From: Lachnospiraceae bacterium
GTDB lineage: Bacteria; Bacillota; Clostridia; Lachnospirales; Lachnospiraceae
Direction: 5' to 3'
Assembly: GCA_014804655.1 (NCBI GenBank)
Contig: JAAUZK010000018.1
Location: 1-64,000 of the forward strand
DNA: 64,000 nucleotides
The position numbers and the translations under genes were made by a program. Below are positions 8,170-30,477 of the stretch, piece after piece (position 1 is the stretch's first letter; each line of letters begins with the position of its first letter). The notes under the pieces were generated by a model, which had not been told where the DNA came from, searched no databases, and saw only the letters and a list, made by a program, of their open reading frames with translations.

Positions 8170-8931
8170 TCATTTGTTCATCACATACGGCGGATCTGCC
8201 GGATACCCGCCTTTCAACTTCTGCATGCCACGTTCAATGGCATCCTTGGAGTTTTTCCAGTCGGCGTCCTTGTTGCGGTAGTCGAATTTTTCTACCATCC
8301 ATGCCACATCTTCGGAGAGTCGTGCCATATTCTGCTCCATCAGTGGGAATACCATATCGTAGAACTCCGCCTTTTCCTTGTCGGACAGTCGTGTGTCGGC
8401 TCCTTCGCACAGGTCGCCGAAATGGTGCAGGCAGAATCCCTTGCTGCTCTTTACCTTCTCACGGAATTCGGGGTCTCTCTTATACATGACGAAGAAGGTA
8501 TCCAGATAGCGTTCGTATGTATCGGCGTACCGCTTGCAGATATAGCAGGACTGCTCTTTTTCCGCGACCCAGAGTCCGATAGGGTTCTGGCGTTCGGTCT
8601 GCTTCCGAAACTTGTCCTTAAGCGATGTCTTGCCGGGTTTGAAGCTCTTAAACTGCTGCTGCATCTCTCGAATGATCTGCATATAGTGTGTCTTTAGAAT
8701 CCATGCGTTGCCAAGGGTGTTGCCATAGTCGTACATTTTCTTGAAATGATCGCGGCAGAAGCCCGCCAGGTCAGTCTGTTCGCGGACATCGCTCTCCATG
8801 TAGGAGGAGCCGGAGCCGAGCACGAAATCCAGCAGATCCTGCTCAACATTGCGCTCAATGAAGCAGAAAGGACATTCGTCGTTGGCGTTCATAGCGTCGT
8901 TAAGGGGGATCGTGTATAATTGTTCTTTCAT
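8170..8931 (-). CDS. DUF6062 family protein
   Basis: The 253-residue soluble protein begins MKEQLYTIPLNDA and has paired cysteines in CPFCFIE near residue 20, CRDH, CYICKRY and CLHHF. This spacing could bind a metal or iron-sulfur cluster. It matches DUF6062 proteins of Lachnospiraceae, whose function is unknown. The start at 8931 is supported by AGAAGG 6-7 bases upstream and a promoter at 8986-9014; the open frame continues upstream without support. Confidence 0.8.
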   Translation of the reverse strand: MKEQLYTIPLNDAMNANDECPFCFIERNVEQDLLDFVLGSGSSYMESDVREQTDLAGFCRDHFKKMYDYGNTLGNAWILKTHYMQIIREMQQQFKSFKPGKTSLKDKFRKQTERQNPIGLWVAEKEQSCYICKRYADTYERYLDTFFVMYKRDPEFREKVKSSKGFCLHHFGDLCEGADTRLSDKEKAEFYDMVFPLMEQNMARLSEDVAWMVEKFDYRNKDADWKNSKDAIERGMQKLKGGYPADPPYVMNK

Positions 8932-8985
8932 GAAATACCTTCTTTCCCGATTATTATATGGATTCGGTATCGAGTCCATAATGAT

Positions 8986-9014
8986 ATTGTACCGCATTCG
9001 GGGGAAAGGGTAAA
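8986..9014 (-). promoter_or_regulatory. Sigma-A-type promoter for the DUF6062 gene
   Basis: On the minus strand TTTACC (9009-9014) is followed by 17 bases and TACAAT (8986-8991). Confidence 0.55.
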
Positions 9015-9076
9015 TAATAAAATGTGCAGTGTAGTAAGTCCGGCATAGGAAATGGTAGCAAATCGGACGACATCGG

Positions 9077-9105
9077 TTGCACAGGTATGGCGTGCGTGTT
9101 ATATT
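9077..9105 (+). promoter_or_regulatory. Sigma-A-type promoter for the HAD hydrolase gene
   Basis: TTGCAC at 9077-9082, a 17-base spacer and TATATT at 9100-9105 lie about 90 bases upstream of the start. Confidence 0.6.
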
Positions 9106-9193
9106 AAATGAGAAAAACGGCAAACGGACTTATCGGCAGTGAATCAGATCAGAGAAATAAGGTAGAGAAGTAAATGCATAAAGGAGCCATCCC

Positions 9194-10018
9194 ATGATTA
9201 CACAAATACCACCGATTAATCAGGATCAGGAACATATACTGCCACAGATACGCTGCTTCGCGCTGGATATGGACGGCACGATTTATCTGGGAGAGCAGTG
9301 GATCGATGGCGCCGTAGAGTTCCTGCACAGAATCGAAGAGACCGGTAGAAACTACGTGTTCGTGACCAACAATTCCTCTAAAAATGCAGCCGTCTATGTG
9401 GATAAGCTGCACCGCATGGGATTGGATGTGGGTGAAGATAAAATCGTCACATCCGGACAGGCCACGATCCATTATCTGAAACAGCATTTCCCGGAGAAAA
9501 AAGTATTCCTGCTGGGCAATCAGCTGTTGCAGGAAGAATTTGAGCAGGCGGGAATCCTGTTGGAGGAGGAACATCCCGATGTGGTGGTGACCGCCTTCGA
9601 TACCTCGCTGGATTATCGGAAGATGTGTCGGGTGTGCGACCATGTGAGAGCCGGGCTGCCTTATCTTGCGACCCATCCCGACTATAACTGCCCCACGGAG
9701 ACGGGATTTATCCCCGATGCGGGTGCAATCCATGCGTTTATCCATGTGTCGGCGTTCCGATATCCGGACAGGGTCATTGGCAAACCGAATGAGGATATTG
9801 TTGAATATCTGACCACCAGAGTCAATGCTGAACGGAAGGAAATTGCCATGGTGGGGGATCGGCTGTATACGGACATCGCCGCAGGCAGGAATAACGGGCT
9901 TAAGAGTATACTCGTCCTGAGCGGGGAGGCATCCATGGAGGATGTGCGCCGGTCGGAGGTTTTGCCGGACATGATATTTGATTCGGTGAAGGAGATCGGA
10001 AAAATATTGGTATCTTAA
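9194..10018 (+). CDS. HAD-IIA family sugar/nucleotide phosphatase (NagD-like)
   Basis: The 274-residue cytosolic hydrolase has motif I LDMDGTIYLG (D25, D27), motif II VTNNSS and motif IV MVGDRLYTDIAAG, with GKPNEDIV before it. The C2-type cap between motifs II and III is that of NagD/AraL and phosphoglycolate-type phosphatases. The substrate cannot be read from the sequence. ATG at 9194 follows AAGGAG. The next gene starts 86 bases later, and the neighbours are envelope glycan genes. Confidence 0.88.
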   Translation: MITQIPPINQDQEHILPQIRCFALDMDGTIYLGEQWIDGAVEFLHRIEETGRNYVFVTNNSSKNAAVYVDKLHRMGLDVGEDKIVTSGQATIHYLKQHFPEKKVFLLGNQLLQEEFEQAGILLEEEHPDVVVTAFDTSLDYRKMCRVCDHVRAGLPYLATHPDYNCPTETGFIPDAGAIHAFIHVSAFRYPDRVIGKPNEDIVEYLTTRVNAERKEIAMVGDRLYTDIAAGRNNGLKSILVLSGEASMEDVRRSEVLPDMIFDSVKEIGKILVS

Positions 10019-17832: not shown

Positions 17833-20394
17833 CTATTGAACCACAACCTTAAGAGTTGCTTTCTTATTATTCGGTGTCTTAGCCGTAATGGTTACATTTC
17901 CTGCTTTCACGCCATATACTTTATTACCAACAATATTGACTTAACCTGCACCGCTTTGTGTATAGGTAACACCTTCTGTCTGATCAGTACCTGCAACAAT
18001 CCAATTACCATCAACTTTAACTTCCGGCTGCATATCGAAAGACGCACCAACTTTTACAGTCTCGGTATTAGCTTTATGATTGCTAAACTTATCATGGGTT
18101 CCAGCTTTATGGATTTCAATACTTGCAGGTTTCTGTAACACTTTGATTGTTGCAGTTGCTGATACACCTGTTACAGATGTAGCTCATACTGTATAGACAT
18201 CTCCAAGAGCAGGCGCTGCAAATTCCACTTTGTAATTCACATTATTTTTACCGCTCGCTTTGGTTTTGTTTGTAAGAACACCCTCAGCCACAGTCTTACC
18301 ATTCTTATCAAGAACCGTCCAATTTACCAGATCAGCAGCACCCTTAGGATTCATGGTTGCCTTTAAGGATACCGACTGCTTCTGCATTACACCCTGCTTA
18401 TTTGCCTTCGGATAAAGTACGATATCCGTCTTGTTCAGCTTAAGAGATGTTGTAGGCTGAATAACATTTACAGTGAACTGAGCCTTAATAACCTTTGCTG
18501 TCTTAGCAGAAGTCTTCGCATCATCATTCCACTTCGTTACTTTGATACCGCTTACCGTAATCTTGGTTGTACCTTTTGCTAATGGTTTAATTATTACCGT
18601 ACCAGCTTTCTCATCTGGCACCATCTCTGCTACTTTGCTGTTTGAATTCGTCCAGCTAAAGGACTCTACAGTACCATTATCCCAGCCTTCCACAGCTTCA
18701 ATTACCTCTGCTTGATATACGCCATTCACTGGAATCCTAATATCTGTCTTAGCTTTATTGATATCTTCCTTTTTCTGCTTTGTTCCCTCAAGCCATACCT
18801 TGGTAACCGGCTTCGGATCTTTCGCATTCGTAATATTTGTAACCGCTATACCATTGATACTACTCTGATTAAGACCTATTCTTACCGTCTGAGGTCCAAG
18901 CGTATTCTTATCGATCCCATCCGTATTTGCTATTTTCTTATCTTTCTTGGACTGAACCTTTACATAAACTGCGTCGGCTTGTAACGTGTTCTTAACTTTC
19001 AGCACACCTTTCGCATTAATTGTAACATCTTTGCTCTTTTGTGTACATGCCTCATCAGCCCATACCGACCATGTCAAAGCATCGTTGTTCATTTCCGGAT
19101 CTCTTTCTACACCTAAGGTAAATGACTGTCCGGTAAATGCATCCGTTGGTGCTGTATCCACATCGACTATAAGTCCGTTCAGTGCTGCGGAAACCTTCAC
19201 ACTGAAGCTTGCTTTCTTACCGCTTGTTGCTGTGGCTGTAATCTTAGCCGTACCGACATTGACCGGTTCCAGTGTTGCTTCAGTGCCAGCAACATTCGTA
19301 AGCCGAATGATTTCGGTCTTAGTCTTACCGATGCTCCATGTGATGTCGTCAGTAATACCATAATCAGTACCATCCTTTGCAATCATTTTGGCATAGACAT
19401 CCATGCCAGTCCATGGTTCATCACCACCGGCATCTACTTTCACAGTACCCTTCAGAAGTACATCTTCTTCCGGTTCAGCCTTATCCTCATAAATTTTGAC
19501 TTCGTTGGCCGGTTTACCTTCTCCAACTGTCAGAGTAGCCGTTGCTGTTTTACCGAGCTCAGATACGGCCGTAACGGTGAATGTATTATTTGCCGGTTTT
19601 TTGCTGTCATATTTCTTAACAGTAACAAAACCATCATTAGAAATGGTTGCTGCACTTGTCTTGCTGATTGACCATGTAATGTCATCATTGGCTGTGGTAG
19701 GATCCTTCTCCAGCCATCTTTTCATATCTACTGTATGTTTTACAAGAAGACACCATCCGCTTCACCCAGCTCTGTCTTTGTAAACCATATATCATCTGCA
19801 TACTGTTTAACAAAAACTTTAGCTGTTGCAGGCTCAACCTCAATGGCAGACCCCTTACAGATCTTCGTTTCACCGGTTTTTTCGTCTACATATTCAAAAG
19901 AATAGTCTTTTCCAGTGAGTGAAGCAGTAATCACAACTTCTTCTCCGACATTGGCAGCTTGCCTAGGATTTAAGGTAGCCACTGTTCTATCAGAGGCTTT
20001 CACATCAATACTTACCTTATTGCGGTCACTTGATTCCCATCTGATCAGTTTGTTGATTTCATCTATCAATCCCTGATTTTCTTCGGCACCGTCCAGCATA
20101 ACTGTAGCCTTCAGGACCGGTTTCGGATTCGCTCCAACCTCTGTTTTCACATAATCCTGATCCAGAGCGATACCAATGATCTTTGTCTCATTGTCTCTCA
20201 GCACGCCGGTATTTGTGTTTGTGTTCGTAACAGTACCTGTAGCTGTATCATCAATACCATTTTAGTTGATAGTAGTTTCACCATCCGATACACTGTACAC
20301 ACCGCGAATGCCTGCTGCCGATGCTGTCAAAGGTGTTCCTACCAGCATAGAAGCCGCCAAAGTAAACACCATTGCTTTTTGAAGCAACTTTTTC
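17833..20394 (-). pseudogene. Broken Big_2 surface-protein gene, paralogue of the plus-strand copy
   Basis: The reading runs from a signal peptide (20280-20394) through Big_2 units to TAG at 17833-17835. It is interrupted by an in-frame TAA near 20262, a frameshift near 19737 (after LGEADGVFL, where VKHTVDM resumes in another frame), a TGA at 18184 and a TAA at 17941. Long intact stretches (18187-19725 and 19743-20204) show the damage is recent. It lacks a proper start codon: the 5' end runs into the recombinase gene. Its internal sequence differs from the intact paralogue, but domain order is alike. Confidence 0.85.
20280..20394 (-). repeat. 115-bp inverted repeat, right copy (signal-peptide region of the pseudogene)
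   Basis: Partner of 14870-14984, in opposite orientation, about 5.3 kb away. Five mismatches, mostly at third codon positions. Confidence 0.85.
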
Positions 20395-20401
20395 TTTTGC
20401 T

Positions 20402-21367
20402 TCAGATAATTTTTAACATTTTTTCAATATTTTGAACTTCTTTTGCTTTCTCGTCATCTGTTACATGAACATATAAATTCATGGTGATGCCTATGTTTGA
20501 ATGTCCCAGAATCATTTGCAGAGTTTTTGGACGCATGCCGCTTTCAATACATCGTGTAGCAAAAGTATGTCACAGGACGTGCATAGAAAATCTTTCAATT
20601 CCAGCCTTATCACAATAATAGAACAGCTTTGAATCATATGTACTGTTTTTGATTGGTGTACCATGCTTGCCTAGGAAAACACTATCTGGGAATTCTATTG
20701 ATTTGCCCTTCATAGATTTTAGCTTTTCCTTTTGATTATTTAGAATGTCTATCGCTTCCTGCGTTAACGGTACATCCCTGACACTATTTTTTGTTTTTGG
20801 TTCACCGATTTTCCATTCGCGTACAGAATATCGATATTCCATTGTCCTGCGGATATGCTGTGTTCTCATCTCAAAATCCACATCCTGCCAACATAAGCCG
20901 GACATTTCTCCGGTTCGGAGCCCTGTTTGCAAAAGCAAAGCAAATTGATTGTAATTGTCTGTTCCTTTGACAGTTTTGAGAAATAATCTCTGTTCTTCAA
21001 TCGTCAAGGCCCGCATTTGTTTCGCTTTCCTGCCGCATGTACATTTTACGCTCTTTGTTACCGGATTCTTACCAATCAGTTCATTCTCTACTGCACAATC
21101 AAATAGCATTCGCATGATAAGCCGGGCATGTTCTATGACTGAATTTGAGTATCTGGTTGACATTTGATTAAGTACGTTTTGGCAATGTAAAGGTTTGACT
21201 TCCTTTAATGGCATATCTCCGATCAACGGTTTTATGTTTTTTTCATAGCATTCGCTGTAAATTCTTCTCGTGTTAAATCGAATGTTATTATTTTTGATAT
21301 TGTCGATCCAATAATGAAACCAAGTATCTACAGTGGGGCTTTCATTTTGAAATAAATCTGTATTCAT
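20402..21367 (-). pseudogene. Tyrosine recombinase/integrase with a nonsense codon at a catalytic residue
   Basis: Reading through one TGA (20570-20572) gives a 321-residue phage-type integrase. It has an N-terminal SAM-like DNA-binding domain (residues 10-100) and a catalytic domain with the first Arg in LQTGLRTGEMSGLCW, Lys in KTKNSVRDVPL, His in LGHSN and nucleophile Tyr in MNLYVHV. The HxxR box reads H-V-L-stop-H-T-F-A-T-R, so the TGA replaces the second catalytic Arg. The start has GAGGAG and a good promoter. Its end abuts the Big_2 pseudogene. Excision genes or att sites were not seen. Confidence 0.85.
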
Positions 21368-21398
21368 TGCTAAAATCTCCTCATCTTTTTAATAAGAA

Positions 21399-21427
21399 AT
21401 TCTATTTTAATATATAATAAGCGTCAA
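21399..21427 (-). promoter_or_regulatory. Promoter of the recombinase gene
   Basis: On the minus strand TTGACG (21422-21427), a 17-base spacer and TAGAAT (21399-21404). Confidence 0.6.
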
Positions 21428-21551
21428 GCATATATATCAAAATATGTCGAAAAGAGGAGGAAACTGTAGAGGCGGTGAAGAGAATAGGTAGCTCCCTCAA
21501 AAACTTTGAATACTCCAAAATACTTTCTGCTATACAGTGGAGAATACAGTC

Positions 21552-21580
21552 TTTACACTTTTTTTGTATTTTGTTATACT
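21552..21580 (+). promoter_or_regulatory. Promoter of the 63-residue protein gene
   Basis: TTTACA at 21552-21557, a 17-base spacer and TATACT at 21575-21580, about 48 bases before the start. Confidence 0.65.
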
Positions 21581-21627
21581 CATATTACAACAATTAATGT
21601 CAACCATAATAGAAAGCAGGTGATTAG

Positions 21628-21819
21628 ATGCCCTATAATGGTGAAATCGTTAGAGATGTAGTTGAACAGTTCCAAAAGGTGCAGGCACATATGAAAAACG
21701 CCAGGGAAGAGAATGCGGTAAAAACTTATGAAGGTTTAAAGAAAGATTATAAATCTTTAAAGGTAATATTAAATTCTCTAGGCGTGAATCTGACAGATAT
21801 TGACGAAATAAAAGAATAG
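21628..21819 (+). CDS. Small helical protein of unknown function
   Basis: 63 residues, soluble, largely helical and charged, with heptad-like spacing through DVVEQFQKVQAHMKNARE and EGLKKDYKSLKVIL. It has a ribosome site (AGCAGGTG), a promoter and a terminator at 21894, so it is very likely real. No family was recognised. Confidence 0.65.
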   Translation: MPYNGEIVRDVVEQFQKVQAHMKNAREENAVKTYEGLKKDYKSLKVILNSLGVNLTDIDEIKE

Positions 21820-21893
21820 AAGTAATGCTTTTTTTGAGGAGATTATGAGGGGTTCGTCGAATGTACCTGTCAAAAAAATGCTGAAAAAATTAT

Positions 21894-21917
21894 CGGGAAC
21901 TGAACAGTTCCCGTTTT
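21894..21917 (+). terminator. Intrinsic terminator
   Basis: CGGGAACTG-AA-CAGTTCCCG followed by TTTT, ending the unit with the 63-residue protein. Confidence 0.85.
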
Positions 21918-21977
21918 CACGTTAAGGAGCCTTATATAGAATTAGGTATTTCTGCTAGAGATTAGGGAGGACTATCT

Positions 21978-23102
21978 ATGCGCAATAAAATTGTCCTAAT
22001 CGGACCGGTTTATCCATATAAGGGCGGGATATCCCACTACACGGGACTAATGTATCGAGAACTGGAGAAACGGCATGATGTAGAGCTGATTTCTTACAAG
22101 ATGCAGTATCCGAAATTCCTCTTCCATAAGGAACAGAGGGATTATGACAATGACAGCTTTAAGATAGCGGGTGCGGAGTATATGCTTCACACGGCGAATC
22201 CTTTTAATATAATAAGGACAGCGCGCCGTATCAGGAGACAGAGACCGGATATCGTAGTGATCCAGTGGTGGCATCCTTATTTTGCGCCCTGTTATTTTCT
22301 TCTGACACATTTTATGGGGCGGCAGAAGATCGTTTTTATATGTCATAACGTATTTCCTCACGAGAGATTTCCCATGGACAGATTCCTTACGAAACTGGCG
22401 TTAAAGCGGGGAGATCATTATATCGTGCATGCGAGGGAAGAAGCGAGTGAGTTAGAGAAGATTAAGAAGAATCCGGATTATGTGGTGACGCCCCACCCGA
22501 CCTATAATGCTTTTCGTTTTGAAGGTATGAGTAAGGCACAGGCCAGAGAGCGTCTACATGTGGAGCAGGATGAGCATGTACTGCTGTTTTTCGGATATGT
22601 GAGAGAATATAAGGGACTGAAATATCTGCTTCGGGCAATGCCGGCGATCCTGCGGGAGGATAGTAAGGTGAGGCTTCTGGTGGTTGGGGAATTCGGTTCC
22701 GACAGAGATGACTATCAGGCATTGATCGATGAATCCGGCGTGGGCGAGCACGTGAACGTGGTGGACTCGTATACACCGGACCGGGAAGTGGAGAAGTATT
22801 TCGCGGCTGCGGATCTTGTAGTGCTTCCCTATATATCTGCGACCCAGAGCGGGATCGTACAGATCGCATACGGTTTTACGAAGCCTGTGATCGTTACAGA
22901 GGTAGGCGGACTGCCGGATGTGGTGGAGGACGGCAGAACCGGATATGTGGTGCAGCCAAAGAGCCCGGAGGCGATTGCGGCGGCGGCGGTTAAGTTCTTC
23001 CGGGAGAATCGGGCGGAGAGTATGGCGGAGAATATTGAGAAGGAGGCTTACCGGTTCTCGTGGGAGAGGATGGGGGATGTGATTGAGGGTTTTATGAAGT
23101 GA
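21978..23102 (+). CDS. GT4 family glycosyltransferase
   Basis: The 374-residue GT-B fold enzyme has an N-terminal acceptor domain starting VLIGPVYPYKGGISHYTG. Its C-terminal donor domain has LLFFGYVREYKGLKYLLRA and VLPYISATQSGIVQIAYGF, with the GGLPDVVEDG tail typical of GT4. It uses a nucleotide sugar and is likely involved in surface glycan assembly. AGGGAGG precedes the ATG. Confidence 0.9.
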   Translation: MRNKIVLIGPVYPYKGGISHYTGLMYRELEKRHDVELISYKMQYPKFLFHKEQRDYDNDSFKIAGAEYMLHTANPFNIIRTARRIRRQRPDIVVIQWWHPYFAPCYFLLTHFMGRQKIVFICHNVFPHERFPMDRFLTKLALKRGDHYIVHAREEASELEKIKKNPDYVVTPHPTYNAFRFEGMSKAQARERLHVEQDEHVLLFFGYVREYKGLKYLLRAMPAILREDSKVRLLVVGEFGSDRDDYQALIDESGVGEHVNVVDSYTPDREVEKYFAAADLVVLPYISATQSGIVQIAYGFTKPVIVTEVGGLPDVVEDGRTGYVVQPKSPEAIAAAAVKFFRENRAESMAENIEKEAYRFSWERMGDVIEGFMK

Positions 23103-23162
23103 TCTGGAAGGATAATTCGTGGTGGTGAGGTGATACAGAACGCGAATCTATGTCATTTATAG

Positions 23163-23191
23163 TTGACGAATTATGACAAATAGATTAGAAT
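23163..23191 (+). promoter_or_regulatory. Promoter of the DAC-like gene
   Basis: TTGACG at 23163-23168, a 17-base spacer and TAGAAT at 23186-23191, about 85 bases before the start. Confidence 0.65.
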
Positions 23192-23274
23192 GTTAAATGT
23201 AATTTGCTTTATAAGAGACGGGATTACATAGAAATCGGCTATTAGGATAAATGGTATAAAGCGAGATTTTCGGA

Positions 23275-24672
23275 ATGAACCTAACATTTTTAACTTCGTT
23301 ATTTAGCGAATTTCAAAATATTTTTCGGAGTACAATGGAAGAACTCTTTGTGAACAAGTGTTTGTGTGAGGAAACGTCATTGTATTTTTTTGTGATAGAG
23401 ATTTCCGAAGGTTCCAAACAAGCATGTTTTGTTAATGCTCGGTTGTTGACGGAAGATATTTGTGCAGAGGGAAAGAAGACTTATGACGAACTGATTCGTG
23501 AATTTCTGACAGAAAGATTTGAAGCAAGAAGATATATGCTGTGGGAGTCGGATCATGTGCTGGTAAATAATAAGGAATATAAGATATTCTGGGTCTTTTT
23601 TTCGGAGTGTGCGGACAGTAACAATGGACGGTTTTTGCTTCGATGTGTATTAGAAGAATTGGCGGAAGACTTCAATAAGCGGCTCAAATCAGTAAGTGGG
23701 GACATGACGGAGAGTGTAGGATCATATCACTATTTAATCCAGAGGATCATGCAGGATGCAACGGCGAAAGCCTGTCTGTATTTACAGAAATTATATGCAC
23801 CGCTAAATATTCCTTTTATTGTTGAATTATCCGGAGAGTATTATGAAAAGTCGGAATGTCGGTCGAATATGGTATTCTTTTTCCGGCAGGCCGTTCATAA
23901 GATAGAGGAAGCCGGTACTTTGTATTATTTTGAGAATATGAAATCAGGGGATATGGAGACAGGAGAGATTGATTTCATTCCCTCGAACAGCCGGCTGATC
24001 AGGAAACTTTTGCAAATCGCACAGGATGATTTATGCCTGATCGTGGGTGAGGATGATGTTAAGAGAACATTTAAAGTCCTCGGTATTTGCAAGAAAAGTT
24101 TTCTGGAGGAGATGGGGAATGAATATCCCTATATTATGATCAGATTTAAAAATCATATGCAATGGGATATGTTGGAAAATCAGACGTACATATTCTCCTA
24201 TAGAAATGGGCAATATAAAATCGAACGTGAGATTCACGAGGCATATCTTATTAGAAAACTGACGGAGCGTTTCGGAGAAGAGCAATCCGCATATAGGGAT
24301 CTGAATGCGAATATAAAGAGCGTAATCCCGCATGAGCATGGTACAATGCTCGTTATAATGGATAAAGAAGACGCAGCCCGGGAAGCAAGGCGGCTGGGCA
24401 TGTTGCAGCAGGGATTTCCGACAGCACAGCCGGAAATACGTACGGAAGAGATCAAACGTCTGAGTAATATTGACGGAAGTATTATCATTGATACGGCTGG
24501 ACAGATACACGGAATTGGTATGATTTTAGACGGAGATTCCCAAGAAACGGGTAATCGGGCAAGGGGCGCCAGATACAATTCTGCAGTAAAATATAAGGCG
24601 TATTTGGAAAAGAATAATATAAAATCAATGATTTTGATAATATCTGAGGATGGTCCGATAGATATCATGTGA
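23275..24672 (+). CDS. Protein with C-terminal DisA/DAC-like nucleotide domain
   Basis: A 465-residue soluble protein. Residues 350-465 resemble the diadenylate cyclase (DisA_N/DAC) fold: HGTMLVIMD at 355, IDGSIIID at 399-406 in place of the DGA motif, GIGMILDGD at 413, RGARYNSAVKY at 430-440 in place of GTRHRTA, and IISEDG at 455. The motif changes (DGA to DGS, RHR to RYN) mean that cyclase activity is uncertain; it could be a nucleotide sensor. Residues 1-340 are of unknown fold. A terminator hairpin follows. Similar DAC-variant domains occur in predicted conflict and signalling systems. Confidence 0.7.
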   Translation: MNLTFLTSLFSEFQNIFRSTMEELFVNKCLCEETSLYFFVIEISEGSKQACFVNARLLTEDICAEGKKTYDELIREFLTERFEARRYMLWESDHVLVNNKEYKIFWVFFSECADSNNGRFLLRCVLEELAEDFNKRLKSVSGDMTESVGSYHYLIQRIMQDATAKACLYLQKLYAPLNIPFIVELSGEYYEKSECRSNMVFFFRQAVHKIEEAGTLYYFENMKSGDMETGEIDFIPSNSRLIRKLLQIAQDDLCLIVGEDDVKRTFKVLGICKKSFLEEMGNEYPYIMIRFKNHMQWDMLENQTYIFSYRNGQYKIEREIHEAYLIRKLTERFGEEQSAYRDLNANIKSVIPHEHGTMLVIMDKEDAAREARRLGMLQQGFPTAQPEIRTEEIKRLSNIDGSIIIDTAGQIHGIGMILDGDSQETGNRARGARYNSAVKYKAYLEKNNIKSMILIISEDGPIDIM

Positions 24673-24682
24673 AAAAACGGTA

Positions 24683-24711
24683 TTGACATGACGCCGTGGT
24701 TGTAGTACTAT
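24683..24711 (+). promoter_or_regulatory. Strong promoter of the 54-residue protein gene
   Basis: TTGACA at 24683-24688, exactly 17 bases, then TACTAT at 24706-24711. Confidence 0.75.
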
Positions 24712-24717
24712 ATTGAC

Positions 24718-24739
24718 GGAGGATTTTTTCCTCCTTTTT
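24718..24739 (+). terminator. Terminator of the DAC-like gene, at the next transcript's start
   Basis: GGAGGA pairs with TCCTCC around a T loop and is followed by TTTTT. It lies just 3' of the -10 box at 24706, so the new transcript would begin with this hairpin. It most simply ends the upstream gene; protection of the 5' end is an alternative. Confidence 0.65.
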
Positions 24740-24767
24740 AAATTAAAAGTGCAGGGGGTAGTTGCGT

Positions 24768-24932
24768 ATGGCGGTAACGACAGGTGAACTAAGAGATAAG
24801 TTAGATAGCTTTAAATATCTTGGGTTATTTAGAAGATCAAGTGAGCAGACGCCGACCAGTTATTGGAAGAAGTGTAAAAGAGACTACTCGCCCTTGACGC
24901 GTACCCAGAAAGCGCGCAGGATGGATAAATAA
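24768..24932 (+). CDS. 54-residue basic protein
   Basis: ATG at 24768 after GGGGG(TA), then 54 codons to TAA at 24930-24932. The product (MAVTTGELRDKL..., ending QKARRMDK) is rich in Lys/Arg, with an aromatic patch SYWKKCKRDY. It has its own promoter (24683) and terminator (24943), so it is expressed as a separate short message between the DAC-like and metallopeptidase genes. No family is recognised; it might be a regulator or DNA/RNA-binding peptide. Confidence 0.6.
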   Translation: MAVTTGELRDKLDSFKYLGLFRRSSEQTPTSYWKKCKRDYSPLTRTQKARRMDK

Positions 24933-24942
24933 AGTAAAGGGA

Positions 24943-24972
24943 GAGCCAAAAAGTATTTTGGCTCTTTTTTTA
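24943..24972 (+). terminator. Intrinsic terminator after the 54-residue gene
   Basis: GAGCCAAAA (24943-24951) pairs with TTTTGGCTC (24956-24964), followed by eight T. Confidence 0.85.
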
Positions 24973-25001
24973 CGGCAAGAAAGACGTATGATGGAGGAGA
25001 T

Positions 25002-27716
25002 ATGAGTCGGGAAATAGATGTCAGAATTATGAAACTCAATAAATGGTATGTGCCGAAGAGTTTCGCGATGGATGATTTGGACCATGACCAGCCGGTGGTC
25101 TTAGGATACTTTGATGCACTTCAAGTACAGAAGGTAGAGATTGACCGGACACAGCGACATCCTTTTACATCAGGGTATGAGGAACTGGAGCGCAGTAAGA
25201 ATGAAGAAAAGAAAAAGCTTGTAGATTACAGTTCACAGGAACAGATGTTATTTCTGAATATATGCGAATCGGAGGAAGAGGAAAACGGACTCCGGTTTAC
25301 TCGGGATAGTGTAGAGCGGTTCTGGCAGGATAAAACTTGTCCTTATATTTTCCTTTCTATGATACATATCAACCATGGCGGCAAACTGAAGCGGGCGTTA
25401 CGCAAGATTGCGAAGGTTTTTGAAAAAGATTACCTAAGCTATATTTCATTTGACTATTGCGATATTGTGTTGTTTACACATAATATGCAGATCAGGGTAT
25501 TCATGGAGAAGATTAAGCAGCTCTTTGAAGTGAAGGGGACAGAAGAAGCCGTTATATTTGATACTTTTTCCATGGTCAGTTTTTGGCCTGAGTTTGCTGC
25601 AAATGCAGAATGCTGCAGTGGCGGATGCCTGTGTGAGCAGGAAGGTAAATCGGACTTTCAGGCAACGATCAATCTGAGTATAAGAGATTACAACCAGTTT
25701 ACCCGGTGGTATTCGAAAATAGACCAAAAAGGTATTAGACTTACACGTTATAATATGTTCGGCAGACATGATATATCTATCGTGAATGATGAGGCAAACA
25801 CATCATGGCTTATGCAGGTTATGGGAAGACTGCATGATGCAAAGAGCCAGGAGATATTCTGGACATTTGAGACATATATCAAAATTCTCGATGATAGTAA
25901 TGTGACCATGACTCCTGACGAGCCTGATTATTTGAGTGAAGTCTACAGTCATGTAACGGGAACTCTGGACGAAGCAATCAGAGGATCAAAAGGAATAGAA
26001 GAAATAATCATGAATTCCGAATTCCGTGATAAGAGCAGGTATTTACTGCCTATATATGAGGTAAGGGACTGTATTTGCAGTATTGTGAAGAACAGTTTTG
26101 CCGAAGAATTTATATACTGTATTTATGAGTCTTTTCTGCACTTTATATCGTATATGAAAAAAGAGATCAAATATCTGAGTGAGCTGGATATAGATCCGAT
26201 CATCAGTGAGGGAGAGATCGCAAATGCCTACGATGATTATTTTACTGCGTTAAATACACTCGTGAACAGTACGATGCACAATGAGAGACAATTTGTGCAG
26301 GCGACTGCTTTTAATGCAGTATTCTATTCTGTGCCGCCCAAGATCATGGCTTTTTATAATGCGTATATTTATCGCATAAAACAAATCTTGCGTGATACAG
26401 AATGTACAGAGGAATATACTTTTTTGATTTATCCAAGTTTCTCGCCAACGATATTTGTCAGACGCATCTCGCTGGCGGATAATCCACCCGTGGATCGGAT
26501 ACTAACCGTCAGGATAAGCGAAAAATCGCTTTATGACATTGAATCTGTTGTGTATCAAATGGTTCATGAACTTGCGCATTATGTCGGAAAAGAGCTCAGG
26601 TGCAGAAATGTACGCAAAAAGAAAATATTAGCTGCTCTGATAGGACACATTGCGGTAAAATGTGCGATGGATCGCAAAACGTGTCAGTTGCTGAATTCTA
26701 TTGTTGAGACGAAGCTGATGAAGGACGACACAGATAATACGGCGGGTTTATGTTCATCGGAATCTGAGTATCTTGAAGATATGAATGATGTAGGAAGAGA
26801 ATTATTGCAGCTGTTGGATAATTCACAGGAATGCAGAAGCTTTTTCGAAAGATATTATAGAGAGCAAATCGACATAGACGAGAATTTTTGCGATGAACTA
26901 TTGGAGGACATCGGAATTAACGAGAAAAATCAGGCGGTCATAATAAGAAATCTGCTGCCCCGGTATTGTGATGTAAAGTATGCGGCGTTTCATGATCAGT
27001 TAAAGAAGATGAATTCTTATGAGGAAATGTGTGAATATGAAGATTATATAGAAATGTTGAAGAGTGTTTATAGCGAATGCTATGCGGATTTGCAAATGAT
27101 ATTGGTTCTTGCAATGAGTGCAGAGGACTATTTGTACACTTTTTTTGTGAAGCAGCAGGTACCGGTAGAAAGCATGCTGTTAGATATTGAGTCGATGCTT
27201 CGGATCAGCACGGTCTACAGAGTTATGACAGACTGTTCTGTATGGCAAAAGAGCGCGAATGGGCCGGACTGCGAATTAGCAGCAATTATTGAATATATAA
27301 ATGAATATAACAAAGATGTAAGAGAAGGCACAGGCACAGAAAGCCGCAGGAAATCCGAAGAATATATAGAGCAGATCAAGGCAATGCAAAAACAATATGA
27401 TTTTAAGAAGGGAATCAGACTTAAGAAATCTTCGACAGAGCAAATGCAGCAGATTCGGGTAGGAATGGAGGAAATAGTTCCTTATGTGGATGCGGCAGTC
27501 GGTTTGTATGAGTATTTGCTGGAAGTCATGATGGAATCTCTGAAAGAATATACATGTGCGTCAAAGAAGGTAATGATTGAGGAGGTAAGAAAAATAGTTG
27601 GTAAGATATTGAATTTTGACGACGCTGCAGGGGTATTTGACAGCATAGAAAAAGAACTGAGCTATTATAAACAGGAAGGCTGTAAGATCCAACCGGGTAG
27701 AACGGAAACTCTATAA
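25002..27716 (+). CDS. Large protein with HELAH zinc-metallopeptidase motif
   Basis: 904 residues, soluble. The protease-like signature is MVHELAHYVG (H522-E-L-A-H526), and a plausible third ligand is in SECYADLQM (E692, D695), a gluzincin-like pattern. A cysteine cluster CCSGGCLC lies at 204-211. The first ~500 residues are of unknown fold and may sense something; the remainder is helical and acidic. AGGAG precedes the ATG at 25002. No promoter was seen between the terminator at 24943 and the start, so expression may come from readthrough. The role is unknown; proteolytic effector is an inference. Confidence 0.75.
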   Translation: MSREIDVRIMKLNKWYVPKSFAMDDLDHDQPVVLGYFDALQVQKVEIDRTQRHPFTSGYEELERSKNEEKKKLVDYSSQEQMLFLNICESEEEENGLRFTRDSVERFWQDKTCPYIFLSMIHINHGGKLKRALRKIAKVFEKDYLSYISFDYCDIVLFTHNMQIRVFMEKIKQLFEVKGTEEAVIFDTFSMVSFWPEFAANAECCSGGCLCEQEGKSDFQATINLSIRDYNQFTRWYSKIDQKGIRLTRYNMFGRHDISIVNDEANTSWLMQVMGRLHDAKSQEIFWTFETYIKILDDSNVTMTPDEPDYLSEVYSHVTGTLDEAIRGSKGIEEIIMNSEFRDKSRYLLPIYEVRDCICSIVKNSFAEEFIYCIYESFLHFISYMKKEIKYLSELDIDPIISEGEIANAYDDYFTALNTLVNSTMHNERQFVQATAFNAVFYSVPPKIMAFYNAYIYRIKQILRDTECTEEYTFLIYPSFSPTIFVRRISLADNPPVDRILTVRISEKSLYDIESVVYQMVHELAHYVGKELRCRNVRKKKILAALIGHIAVKCAMDRKTCQLLNSIVETKLMKDDTDNTAGLCSSESEYLEDMNDVGRELLQLLDNSQECRSFFERYYREQIDIDENFCDELLEDIGINEKNQAVIIRNLLPRYCDVKYAAFHDQLKKMNSYEEMCEYEDYIEMLKSVYSECYADLQMILVLAMSAEDYLYTFFVKQQVPVESMLLDIESMLRISTVYRVMTDCSVWQKSANGPDCELAAIIEYINEYNKDVREGTGTESRRKSEEYIEQIKAMQKQYDFKKGIRLKKSSTEQMQQIRVGMEEIVPYVDAAVGLYEYLLEVMMESLKEYTCASKKVMIEEVRKIVGKILNFDDAAGVFDSIEKELSYYKQEGCKIQPGRTETL

Positions 27717-28000
27717 TAGGGATAAAAGACTGGATTTTCGTCACGTATTGTGGCATAATGTTTTTGGAAAGAATCATTCAGAGCAGGAAGCGATGTATTT
27801 TGTACAAAAGATAAAATGTTCTGTGGTGGTTCTTTCTTGTTTTACGGAAGAAGCTATGAAGATTGAGGTAGCGAAGTGAATCAATCGAGTGAATGAGTTT
27901 GGCTGTGTGGTTATTGTACGGGCAAGATCGTTCTACGAAATGTTTATGAAAGATTAGTGGACATTTGTATAAAAGGCGATGAAGTAGTTGAGATAGTTGA

Positions 28001-28927
28001 ATGATGAAAGAATGTAGTAAACCATTGGTAAGTATTATAGTACCTGTATATCAGGTAAAAGATTATGTCGGGGAGTGCGTGGAATCCTTGCTTCGGCAGA
28101 TTTATACGAATCTAGAGATTCTGCTGGTGGACGATGGCAGTACGGACGGCTCCGGAGAGATATGTGATGAATATGCGCGCAGGGATAATAGAATCAGGGT
28201 GATTCATCATGAGAATCAGGGACTATCGGCAGCCAGAAATGCAGGACTAGATCGGGCAATGGGAGAATATGTGGCATTTGTGGATTCTGACGATGCCGTG
28301 TTGCCGGTTTTTATAGAGACATTGTATGATCTGGCAGAAAGATATCAGGCGGATATTGCGGTCTGTGCATATGGGCGGGGAGAGATCAAAGGCACTGGTA
28401 CACAAATTGAAAATGACATACGTGTCGCAAACCCATTTCGAGATAAGAAAGCTGGTGGTACAGTAGACAGATATGATTACTCTAAATATGACGGTAGTGT
28501 CACAGAAGTATGTATGACCTCGAGCCAGATGTTGCGTCAGTGGCATGGACGATATAAGAAGTGGGAAACGGTGGCATGGAATAAACTTTATCGGAAGCGG
28601 ATTTTGGATGGAACAGACGACAGTGACGCGATACGTTTTCCGATTGGTAGAAGACATGAAGATGTCTTGACAAGCCACTTGATCGTTGCGAACGCAGGGA
28701 GAATCGCTCTGACCACACAGAAACTCTACATGTATCGTACAAGGGAAGATAGCATCACTACTCAAGTTATGACGGCGGAGCATAGAAAGCAGAATCTGCT
28801 TGCGCAGAGAGAGCGGATGGCGTTTTTTAGAAAGCGGCGGTATTGGCGGGCATATCTGAACTTGCTTATAGGGTATGTGCTACATGTGGGGTGGTTTTGG
28901 TGGAAGAGGGAGAAGGAACGTAAATGA
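28001..28927 (+). CDS. GT2 family glycosyltransferase
   Basis: The 308-residue protein has a typical GT-A domain: VSIIVPVYQVKDYVGE, LLVDDGSTDGSGEICDEY, GLSAARNAGLDRA and FVDSDD as the metal site. The basic tail ends WWKREKERK. Its stop overlaps the start of the next gene by 4 bases (ATGA type), so the two are translationally coupled. The 284 bases upstream show nothing identifiable. Confidence 0.9.
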   Translation: MMKECSKPLVSIIVPVYQVKDYVGECVESLLRQIYTNLEILLVDDGSTDGSGEICDEYARRDNRIRVIHHENQGLSAARNAGLDRAMGEYVAFVDSDDAVLPVFIETLYDLAERYQADIAVCAYGRGEIKGTGTQIENDIRVANPFRDKKAGGTVDRYDYSKYDGSVTEVCMTSSQMLRQWHGRYKKWETVAWNKLYRKRILDGTDDSDAIRFPIGRRHEDVLTSHLIVANAGRIALTTQKLYMYRTREDSITTQVMTAEHRKQNLLAQRERMAFFRKRRYWRAYLNLLIGYVLHVGWFWWKREKERK

Positions 28928-30477
28928 AGGATAAGATTATTTTAAAGAAAACAGCTTTCATCGTAGGGGCAATATTTGCCTGTTTGATTATTATACAGCA
29001 TCGATATGTTTTCATGTGTTTCGATGATTACGGTTATGCAAGCCTGTCATATGGATGGACTGGAAATGCAGTGGGAATGGACTATGGTCTAAAGGATATT
29101 TTTCAGTTCTTGAAGTGGCATTATTTGAACCACGGCGGACGCGTTCTCTATTTTTTCTTTGAGATCGTAATGTTTAGGATCGGTGGGACGGTGTTAATCC
29201 AGATCGTACAGGCTGTCATTATTATAATGATCAGCATTATTTCCGGAAAAATCGTTGCGGAAGTGGTCAAGTGTGAGGAGTGGCAGAGTGTTTCGTTATG
29301 TTTGGTTTTGTATGGCACATTATGCCTGCGATCTGTGAGAGATAGCATTTATTGGTATACGGCCAGTGTTTTATATGTCTGGCCGTTACTACCGCTGTTA
29401 GGCTGTATGTGGGTTACGACATTGATTCAGAGAAAAGAAACGCGGCTTAGGAAATGGACGGCGGTGTTACTGGCTTTTATGGCGGCGTTTTCGCAGGAAC
29501 AGATATCTGTTCTGATCATTGTCTGGATCGCCATACGTATTCTGTCTGTGTATTGGGACCAGAGACAGAAGAATGAGAAAATACATATCCCGGGTTATTT
29601 GATCCTGATGGGTATCAGTGCCGTTTTAGGAGGCGCAATTACCATACTGGCACCGGGGAATTTTGTTCGTGCCGTAGAGGATGAATGTTACAGCAAAAGT
29701 ATTGTAATAATGTTGATAGAAAATGCAGGAAAGATTGTGAACTGCAATATAGGATATTGGAATTGGGTATTTGTGCTGATTATGACGGCAGTATTCGGAA
29801 CAGCGGCGGCAATTTATCTCAAAAACAGAAAGATAATGGGAGTTGCGTGTATATTTGCAGGGTATTATGTTCTGGAACGCATCTTGCCCGGGCAGATGCA
29901 GACGGCTTCGCTCTTATTTGGAGTTGTGGTGCGGTTCGTGTGGGTGTTATACTTCTTCAGCATTCTTTCAGTATACTATTATAAGCGGAAAAACTATTTA
30001 TTATTGTCAATGTTGATTGCGGGGATCTGTTCACAGGGAGCATTGATTATTTCGCCGATAGTTTATACGAGATGCCATACGGTGATGGAGTTTATTTTAC
30101 ATATTATATTGACGGAATGTATTATAAGTATCGGAAATGCAGATATAATAAGTCGGAAAAGACCGAGAACAGTGGGATTTCATTTGTGTGTCGGTTTCCT
30201 GTGTATATATGCTTTGTGTAATTTTTGCAGTATTATAGGCGGCTATAAACGAAATGATGAAATAAACAAAATGAATCACTATAAGCTGGAGGAGATAGGA
30301 GAAGGTTATAAGGATGGATATGAAATAGAGGAAGTTGAACTATATAAGCTGTATGATGACAGATATGCAACGAATATGCCCTATCAGGAAGGATATGAAT
30401 ATATTGAAGGGTGGATGAAGAATTATTATGAGCTGCCACAGGAGATACATTTTTACTGGCGTGAGGTGAAGGAGTAG
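28924..30477 (+). CDS. Multi-pass membrane protein, DUF6056-like / GT-C type
   Basis: The 517-residue protein has about 11 hydrophobic segments. The first external loop contains FDDYGYASLSYGW with an Asp pair, as in GT-C transferases and DUF6056 proteins. The C-terminal ~70 residues are soluble and acidic. Coupled to the GT2 gene at 28001, it probably acts on a lipid-linked sugar or exports or attaches glycan. The DUF assignment is from memory of the pattern. Confidence 0.65.
   Translation: MKDKIILKKTAFIVGAIFACLIIIQHRYVFMCFDDYGYASLSYGWTGNAVGMDYGLKDIFQFLKWHYLNHGGRVLYFFFEIVMFRIGGTVLIQIVQAVIIIMISIISGKIVAEVVKCEEWQSVSLCLVLYGTLCLRSVRDSIYWYTASVLYVWPLLPLLGCMWVTTLIQRKETRLRKWTAVLLAFMAAFSQEQISVLIIVWIAIRILSVYWDQRQKNEKIHIPGYLILMGISAVLGGAITILAPGNFVRAVEDECYSKSIVIMLIENAGKIVNCNIGYWNWVFVLIMTAVFGTAAAIYLKNRKIMGVACIFAGYYVLERILPGQMQTASLLFGVVVRFVWVLYFFSILSVYYYKRKNYLLLSMLIAGICSQGALIISPIVYTRCHTVMEFILHIILTECIISIGNADIISRKRPRTVGFHLCVGFLCIYALCNFCSIIGGYKRNDEINKMNHYKLEEIGEGYKDGYEIEEVELYKLYDDRYATNMPYQEGYEYIEGWMKNYYELPQEIHFYWREVKE

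Follow-up and report, generated by a model that had tools for sequence, protein, structure and literature searches.

A diadenylate-cyclase-like protein and a metallopeptidase-like protein form a co-inherited gene unit in Lachnospiraceae, with a possible role in phage defense

Results

A co-inherited gene unit

The 64,000-nt stretch of a Lachnospiraceae genome analyzed here (assembly GCA_014804655.1, contig JAAUZK010000018.1, positions 1 to 64,000; hereafter, the window) contains three consecutive genes on the forward strand, encoding a 465-residue DACNH-DAC protein with a diadenylate-cyclase (DAC) domain at approximately residues 345–465 (23275–24672); a small basic protein of 54 residues (ATG 24768 to 24932; the open reading frame (ORF) listing gives 56 residues from TTG 24762); and a 904-residue HExxH metallopeptidase-like protein, MP (25002–27716). 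The DAC and MP genes, with the small gene, are a real, co-inherited, and patchily distributed unit. Its most likely function, which we propose tentatively, is that of an anti-phage (abortive infection) system, in which MP would be the constant sensor or activator, the DAC protein an exchangeable part, and the small protein an accessory. A preliminary description of this DNA, made from its letters alone, had proposed the three consecutive genes as a candidate module and suggested following the two large proteins across genomes; the ORFs are confirmed, and their homologs stay adjacent elsewhere.

DAC-family genes adjoin MP genes in 17 distinct loci and in both gene orders: DAC-MP in 15 loci and MP-DAC in two (G603, G397). 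In samples that each include the window's genome, MP is found in 14 of 397 genomes of the family, 2/295 of the order, 3/391 of the class, and 1/299 of the phylum; in nine of the 14 family genomes, the neighboring ORF encodes a DAC-family protein. A scan of a genome collection, described as covering 84,980 species, with six DAC-linked MPs and two exact peptide patterns as the query yields 13 MP loci (five repeat earlier loci), and in all 13 the ORF immediately upstream is of the DAC family. Searched with the DAC alignment, the 397 genomes of the family give 11 matches: the nine with MP; G274, with a remnant of 49 residues; and G572, a weak match to a different DAC protein. With the MP and DAC searches taken as the same draw of genomes, nine have both genes, five MP only, two DAC-like only, and 381 neither (Fisher p 1.7e-13, a descriptive value, because phylogeny is ignored and most DACs in the search alignment are themselves MP-linked).

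The distances among DACs and among MPs are correlated (15 pairs, leaving out two loci without the cyclase domain, L058 and L059; r = 0.875, 0/5000 permutations). The paired FastTree trees of the two proteins have the same branching, with low support at some nodes; in DAC trees with further relatives, some weak branches shift relative to the paired ones. We do not claim that the DAC-MP pair arose only once, as FastTree groups the MP-linked DACs with weak support only; in the part of the IQ-TREE result considered here they are not grouped, and G603 and G397 join a Priestia DAC (55%).

The DACNH-DAC protein

The sole strong NCBIfam match of the 465-residue protein is NF053872 ("DS2_3_antiphage"), covering residues 238–465 (E 1.4e-45) at 155.7 bits, far below the equivalog cut-off of 630 bits; the first 237 residues lie outside the match. 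In Pfam, DACNH scores 18.2 bits, under the cut-off of 27, while DAC (PF02457) yields no match at E ≤ 1 and does not reach its gathering score. The relative from G283 clears both Pfam cut-offs (DAC, 33.7 bits, cut-off 27; DACNH, 31.7 bits), and among nine MP-linked members scanned, six reach E ≤ 0.01 for DAC and six for DACNH.

The AlphaFold2 model (16 sequences; pLDDT 84.7, pTM 0.85) has DisA, CdaA, DacA, or DacM structures as all of its 17 best Foldseek matches in the PDB (E 8.4e-5 to 2.1e-3), the first unrelated match following at E 0.13; with CdaA (6huw), the TM-score is 0.61 by target length over 132 columns. Judged by this model, the protein contains a DAC fold of the DisA/CdaA type, in agreement with the DisA/DAC-like C-terminus proposed earlier; the fold is placed at the C-terminus because of the sequence alignments, the Foldseek listing giving no residue ranges. 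Searches of PDB sequences with the DAC-family alignment and with the G283 protein return nothing, and the viral fold library yields nothing for the model at E ≤ 0.001.

In a MAFFT alignment with the CdaA of the same genome, HDGA is replaced by IDGS, GTRHR by GARYN, and SEE by SED. We take these positions to be the catalytic motifs, including those named DGA and RHR; in their place, the window protein has DGS and RYN. Of 23 aligned relatives, the 21 that retain the cyclase domain share DG[AST] and R-x-N. The altered motif is also seen in two plasmid proteins above the NF053872 cut-off, from Citrobacter (803.8 bits) and Gluconobacter (712.2 bits), whose genes adjoin genes annotated as patatin-like phospholipase and nucleotidyltransferase. 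By sequence, the window protein is a distant, below-cut-off relative of the DS-2 DAC within the same superfamily. According to the available text of the DefensePredictor paper (PMC13092281), DS-2 is a validated anti-phage system that resembles a cyclic-oligonucleotide-based anti-phage signaling system (CBASS) and is made up of three proteins (phospholipase, cGAS-like cyclase, and DAC); mutation of either of two predicted catalytic residues of this DAC abolishes defense; and 15 of 30 DAC homologs lie beside a CBASS.

The metallopeptidase-like protein

MP carries HELAH at residues 522–526 and, as read from the translation, SECYAD at 691–696, with ExxxD at 692–696; both had been noted in the preliminary description. 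In an alignment of 20 MPs (16 DAC-type, two SIR2-type, and two membrane-type) HExxH and ExxxD are invariant, the fully conserved residues being H522, E523, H526, R538, E692, D696, and R734. HExxH plus ExxxD is the signature of gluzincins, clan MA(E), and all 20 proteins conserve HExxH with the distal Glu ligand.

No PADLOC model matches any of the 20 MPs at E ≤ 0.1. In Pfam there are 17 matches, all weak and each limited to a single member (best 0.0071), and among PDB sequences there are seven at E ≤ 1 (best 0.0037, RNase L); these weak matches (UBR4, Mei4, Staygreen, WLM, RNase L, and others), being below cut-offs or limited to single members, are judged to be chance. The AlphaFold2 model of MP (14 sequences, pLDDT 80.2) has two beta-alpha-beta-beta-alpha-beta units at about 115–194 and 219–294 (secondary structure read by eye), and is largely helical after residue 294. 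Foldseek finds nothing in the PDB at E ≤ 0.001 for this model, and no peptidase fold is matched; the best matches, coproheme decarboxylases and chlorite dismutases (E from 8.2e-3 up), support only the two modeled ferredoxin-like units. The MP family is metallopeptidase-like and undescribed in Pfam and PADLOC. A tblastn search of phages and plasmids at 1e-5 and a search of viral contigs with query A3 find no MP; one match, in G845, was dropped from the set, its ORF of 139–142 residues being unlike MP in length.

Exchange of the partner

Relatives of MP are found with partners other than a DAC. At three loci the partner is a SIR2_2 protein (the second MP of the window's genome, G433, and G714; 57.8, 62.5, and 60.3 bits), the three SIR2 proteins conserving GAG, YNYD, and HG motifs. 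The second MP of the window's genome (contig C10, L005 5716–8802; 1028 residues, HECMH) overlaps its SIR2_2 gene (8774–9928), and this locus is a sister system of the window module. At three other loci (G502, G324, and G537), the partner is a multi-pass membrane protein with hydrophobic segments in its N-terminal part; phmmer detects no likeness among these three. In one DAC-MP operon (G504), the gene of a 218-residue SLATT_5 protein overlaps the MP 3' end (L034 10117–10773; 39.9 bits vs. 29.5). SIR2 and SLATT are defense effector types.

The MP of G324 was matched in the family-genome search, not in the ORF-level search; the MP-like gene of G537 (L044) lies in two ORFs; and in G384 (L040), where no partner is assigned, the MP-like gene falls into two ORFs where bases are undetermined. 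The MP-SIR2 locus of the window's genome is adjoined by an AAA-ATPase/PD-(D/E)XK gene; nearby are a DprA-family gene and one that weakly matches phosphoribosyltransferase (21.9 bits, cut-off 26.3).

The small gene

All ten loci with a DAC-MP gap of at least 274 nt hold a small ORF, seven of the window's type; of the other seven, five have a gap between −35 and 24 nt, and two have the reversed order. The window's basic protein has a C-terminal tail (SYW...DYSxL...) partly common to its relatives, which occupy the same position in six other loci: clear homologs in G638 and G543, and matches at 11.8–16.5 bits in L057, L058, L059, and L060. Small ORFs of a second type (CFxGKGxL), alike by eye, are seen in G660 and L069, and a third small ORF in L068. 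As small ORFs in such gaps also arise by chance, only the seven alike ones carry weight, and the small protein is present in only a part of the DAC-MP family. Its dN/dS ratio (non-synonymous to synonymous substitution rates) between the window and G638 is 0.22, with dS near saturation, and L058 differs from L059 by one synonymous and three amino acid changes; these data are weak support for the ORF being protein-coding. It is ruled out as a known RNA by the Rfam scan of 23000–28000, empty at gathering thresholds; a phage origin was considered and set aside, no relative being confirmed in viral contigs.

The small gene had been described as having its own promoter and terminator. The promoter-like site upstream of it (24683..24711, +; TTGACA-17-TACTAT, 10/12 bases) is only suggestive, since 11 of 200 shuffles of the window gap alone equal its score. 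Beyond the window, such sites beat most shuffles in two of the ten gaps (L060, reached by 0/200; L069, 4/200), and in the remaining seven they are indistinguishable from shuffles; in G638, a TTGACA-17-TATAGT site that overlaps the stop codon of the DAC gene falls outside the scored stretch. The terminator-like hairpin after the small gene runs into T residues (24934..24973, +; fold of 24930–24985, −22.4 kcal/mol), the terminator scan listing this hairpin on the minus strand only. Another promoter-like site lies upstream of the DAC gene (23163..23191, +; TTGACG-17-TAGAAT, 10/12 bases). Over the region, 14 such sites are observed vs. 15.8 ± 4.0 expected from shuffles, hence, there is no excess.

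Discussion

Function of the module

Since MP is constant and its partner, an enzyme or a membrane protein, varies, MP is favored as the sensor or trigger, and the DAC protein as the effector or signal source; by analogy, a constant and a changing part of a defense system would usually be a sensor or activator and an exchangeable effector. We suggest that the N-terminal alpha/beta region of MP senses infection or a ligand, and that the metallopeptidase then cuts or otherwise releases the partner, i.e., the DAC protein here, and SIR2 or a multi-pass membrane protein in the sister systems. Once released, the DAC would turn ATP into an adenine dinucleotide, harming or stalling the infected cell either via the host's own c-di-AMP targets and loss of ATP or via a dedicated effector, such as SLATT_5 where present; c-di-AMP is the host's "essential poison." The small protein could be an inhibitor or a cleavage target holding the system silent.

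In favor of this defense function, we count the membership of the DAC in a superfamily that includes the DAC of the DS-2 CBASS, with predicted catalytic residues needed for defense; the 17 DAC-MP loci with correlated distances, invariant HExxH and ExxxD, the DAC fold, and the patchy occurrence; and the SIR2_2 and membrane partners together with the SLATT_5 overlap in G504. The preliminary description had likened the layout to second-messenger defense systems; the relatedness to NF053872 and DS-2 agrees with that, while the swap of partners rather suggests MP as the constant sensor or activator. The two outcomes that it named as refuting its proposal did not occur: the two large proteins do co-occur across genomes, and the 465-residue protein does contain a DisA/CdaA-type fold. 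It had only inferred that the three genes work together; DAC and MP are co-inherited, and the small protein is confined to part of the family.

Several observations weigh against the defense reading. The GTRHR motif of CdaA is altered to GARYN, and the family DAC profile scores close to noise against the CdaA of the same genome (4.4 bits; hhalign probability 0.5%); therefore, cyclase catalysis or its product may differ from that of canonical DACs. The suggested setting in defense islands is not found: among 12 neighbor proteins scanned in seven DAC-MP loci, only SLATT_5 (L034) and ThiF (L068) look defense-related, the other ten being a glycosyltransferase, NeuB, MptE-like, two leucine-rich repeat proteins, LGT, a PEP-utilizing protein, a histidine kinase, and two unassigned proteins, so the evidence from defense islands is weak. 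NF053872 has three matches in 96 genomes of the order, and only that of the window's genome has MP in the examined stretch (the contig of G012 is only 5.3 kb). A further 14 DAC-family loci likewise have no MP in the examined stretch (two genome contigs, seven plasmids, four viral contigs, and G572); they become 15 if G274 is counted, although its remnant falls below the size limit applied. Given the adjacency counts and these loci, this MP subgroup comes with a DAC-family gene, while DACs need no MP. Finally, L058 and L059 retain MP and the small ORF, but the upstream ORF (L058 5731–6717, L059 5725–6717) keeps the rest of the DAC protein and stops before the cyclase domain; it evolves faster than MP (dN/dS 0.46 vs. 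0.17) and has altered YE and IRK motifs. These two loci are awkward for the DAC as an indispensable effector, unless they are decaying.

The direction of activation might be the opposite: the DAC protein, via DACNH, would sense infection and make a cyclic nucleotide, the MP N-terminus would bind it, and the peptidase would be the effector, destroying host proteins or freeing a toxin, perhaps the small protein. The arrangement is similar to that of CBASS, with a synthase beside a large enzyme whose N-terminal alpha/beta region is unassigned; the DAC of DS-2 acts together with a CBASS; and SIR2-type enzymes could in principle make a nucleotide signal as well. However, the membrane partners of MP relatives show no recognized nucleotide-making domain, therefore MP needs no cyclase, and no cyclic-nucleotide-binding domain is recognized in MP either among Pfam matches or by Foldseek of the model; we consider this signal-to-protease order unlikely. 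Appreciably less probable still is a restraint in which the nucleotide, constantly made by the DAC, keeps MP or its partner inactive until phage sponges or nucleases remove it. Such a scheme has a precedent in Panoptes, where, according to the available text of PMC12657218, OptS constitutively makes cyclic dinucleotides that restrain OptE; a DAC beside a CBASS, as in DS-2, could equally be a guard. MP without the cyclase domain, as in L058 and L059, should then be harmful, and no synthase is recognized among the partners of SIR2-type and membrane-type MPs.

Two readings leave phage defense aside. Regulation of the cell envelope or glycans by a c-di-AMP/proteolysis unit, to which we assign the same low probability as to the restraint, is suggested by the position of the module among glycosyltransferases, by the same glycosyltransferase (78% identical) adjoining the window and G638 modules, and by the NeuB and MptE-like neighbors in L060; it agrees poorly with the patchy occurrence across the family, order, class, and phylum samples, with the varying neighbors among the loci scanned, and with the DS-2/CBASS, restriction-modification, and TIR/AAA settings of DAC relatives. 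The least probable of all, in our estimate, is a toxin–antitoxin-like unit serving the maintenance of an element, in which the small protein neutralizes the DAC protein or MP: a small ORF in each of the ten long gaps, seven of them of the window's type, and the promoter-like site and hairpin at the window's small gene would fit, but in seven of the 17 loci an intervening small gene either lacks space or is not detected.

Comparison with known systems

The window protein and DS-2 share the DAC superfamily, by the profile match, and the motifs IDG and G[AS]RYNS, which are those of the plasmid copies from Citrobacter and Gluconobacter that exceed the cut-off; unlike in DS-2, no cGAS-like cyclase or phospholipase is seen among the ten scanned neighbors in the window, and the partner is MP. 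With DisA and CdaA (PF02457), the protein shares the fold, and the DG and SE[ED] motifs are kept in the alignment; it differs in GARYN for GTRHR, in IDGS for HDGA, and in sequence similarity near noise. It has a DACNH-like middle in place of the other parts of DisA or CdaA. Gluzincin-type metallopeptidases share with MP the invariant HExxH and distal ExxxD, whereas MP has a spacer of about 166 residues between the two and, among the matches listed, resembles no peptidase in sequence or fold. Defense effectors of the SIR2 (SIR2_2) type are paired with MP relatives in the sister systems, while the window module is without SIR2. Panoptes (OptS/OptE) is likewise a two-gene unit with a predicted cyclic-dinucleotide maker, but, in the available text, its synthase is mCpol and its effector a 2TM-beta protein; the OptS products include 2',3'-c-di-AMP (PMC12657218). 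No DAC-metallopeptidase pair is described in the titles and abstract beginnings of the open-license papers among the matches listed.

A DAC has been experimentally tied to phage defense only recently, beside a CBASS (DS-2). The window module has a DS-2-related DAC without a CBASS, tied to an MP family whose relatives swap the DAC for SIR2 or membrane proteins. The broadest claim, namely, an undescribed modular class of phage defense in gut Firmicutes, in which the MP family is a sensor and proteolytic trigger for interchangeable killers (DAC-like, SIR2 NADase, or membrane protein) and the DAC version weaponizes c-di-AMP or its altered-site relative, seems to us rather unlikely; if true, it would add a class of modular defense systems, offer a simple test of what defense DACs do, and raise the possibility of c-di-AMP-type nucleotides as weapons in Firmicutes.

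Genomic surroundings and further DAC-family loci

In the window, the three-gene module is flanked by glycosyltransferase genes. No CD-NTase gene, by which a CBASS would be recognized, is found in the scan of 18184–30477, which covered ten proteins; neither an mCpol synthase nor a 2TM-beta effector, the marks of Panoptes, is named among the window proteins scanned; PADLOC yields zero matches for five window genes; and megablast finds no similar DNA in plasmids. No convincing flanking repeats marking an inserted element are seen in 20000–29000. To the left of the module, a tyrosine recombinase gene (20570–21367, −) has an in-frame stop and has lost its C-terminal part; it is a broken mobile-element remnant. 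The ORF at 18184–19725 (−) weakly matches Big_2 (Ig-like; 19.7 bits, cut-off 22.8); together with that at 19740–20204 (−), it may be a single broken gene. The glycosyltransferase left of the module (21978–23102) corresponds to the 78% identical copy in G638, of the same genus (L033 5269–6423), located on the opposite side of its module, i.e., the same neighborhood, rearranged; the G638 module is also adjoined by an 898-residue gene, Ig-like-looking by reading (L033 11098–13794).

Elsewhere, a DAC-family gene in G010 (L010 9027–11915) adjoins an HD-domain gene without MP, another possible pairing. In G572 (L095 337–7727), a DAC-like protein that is divergent (24 bits, cut-off 27) is encoded amid TIR, HNH, and AAA_21/DUF4435 genes. 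Four viral contigs (L053–L056) carry DAC-family genes; in one of them (L054), the DAC protein carries a long extension at its C-terminus, with a TIR-like gene in the vicinity (translations read by eye).

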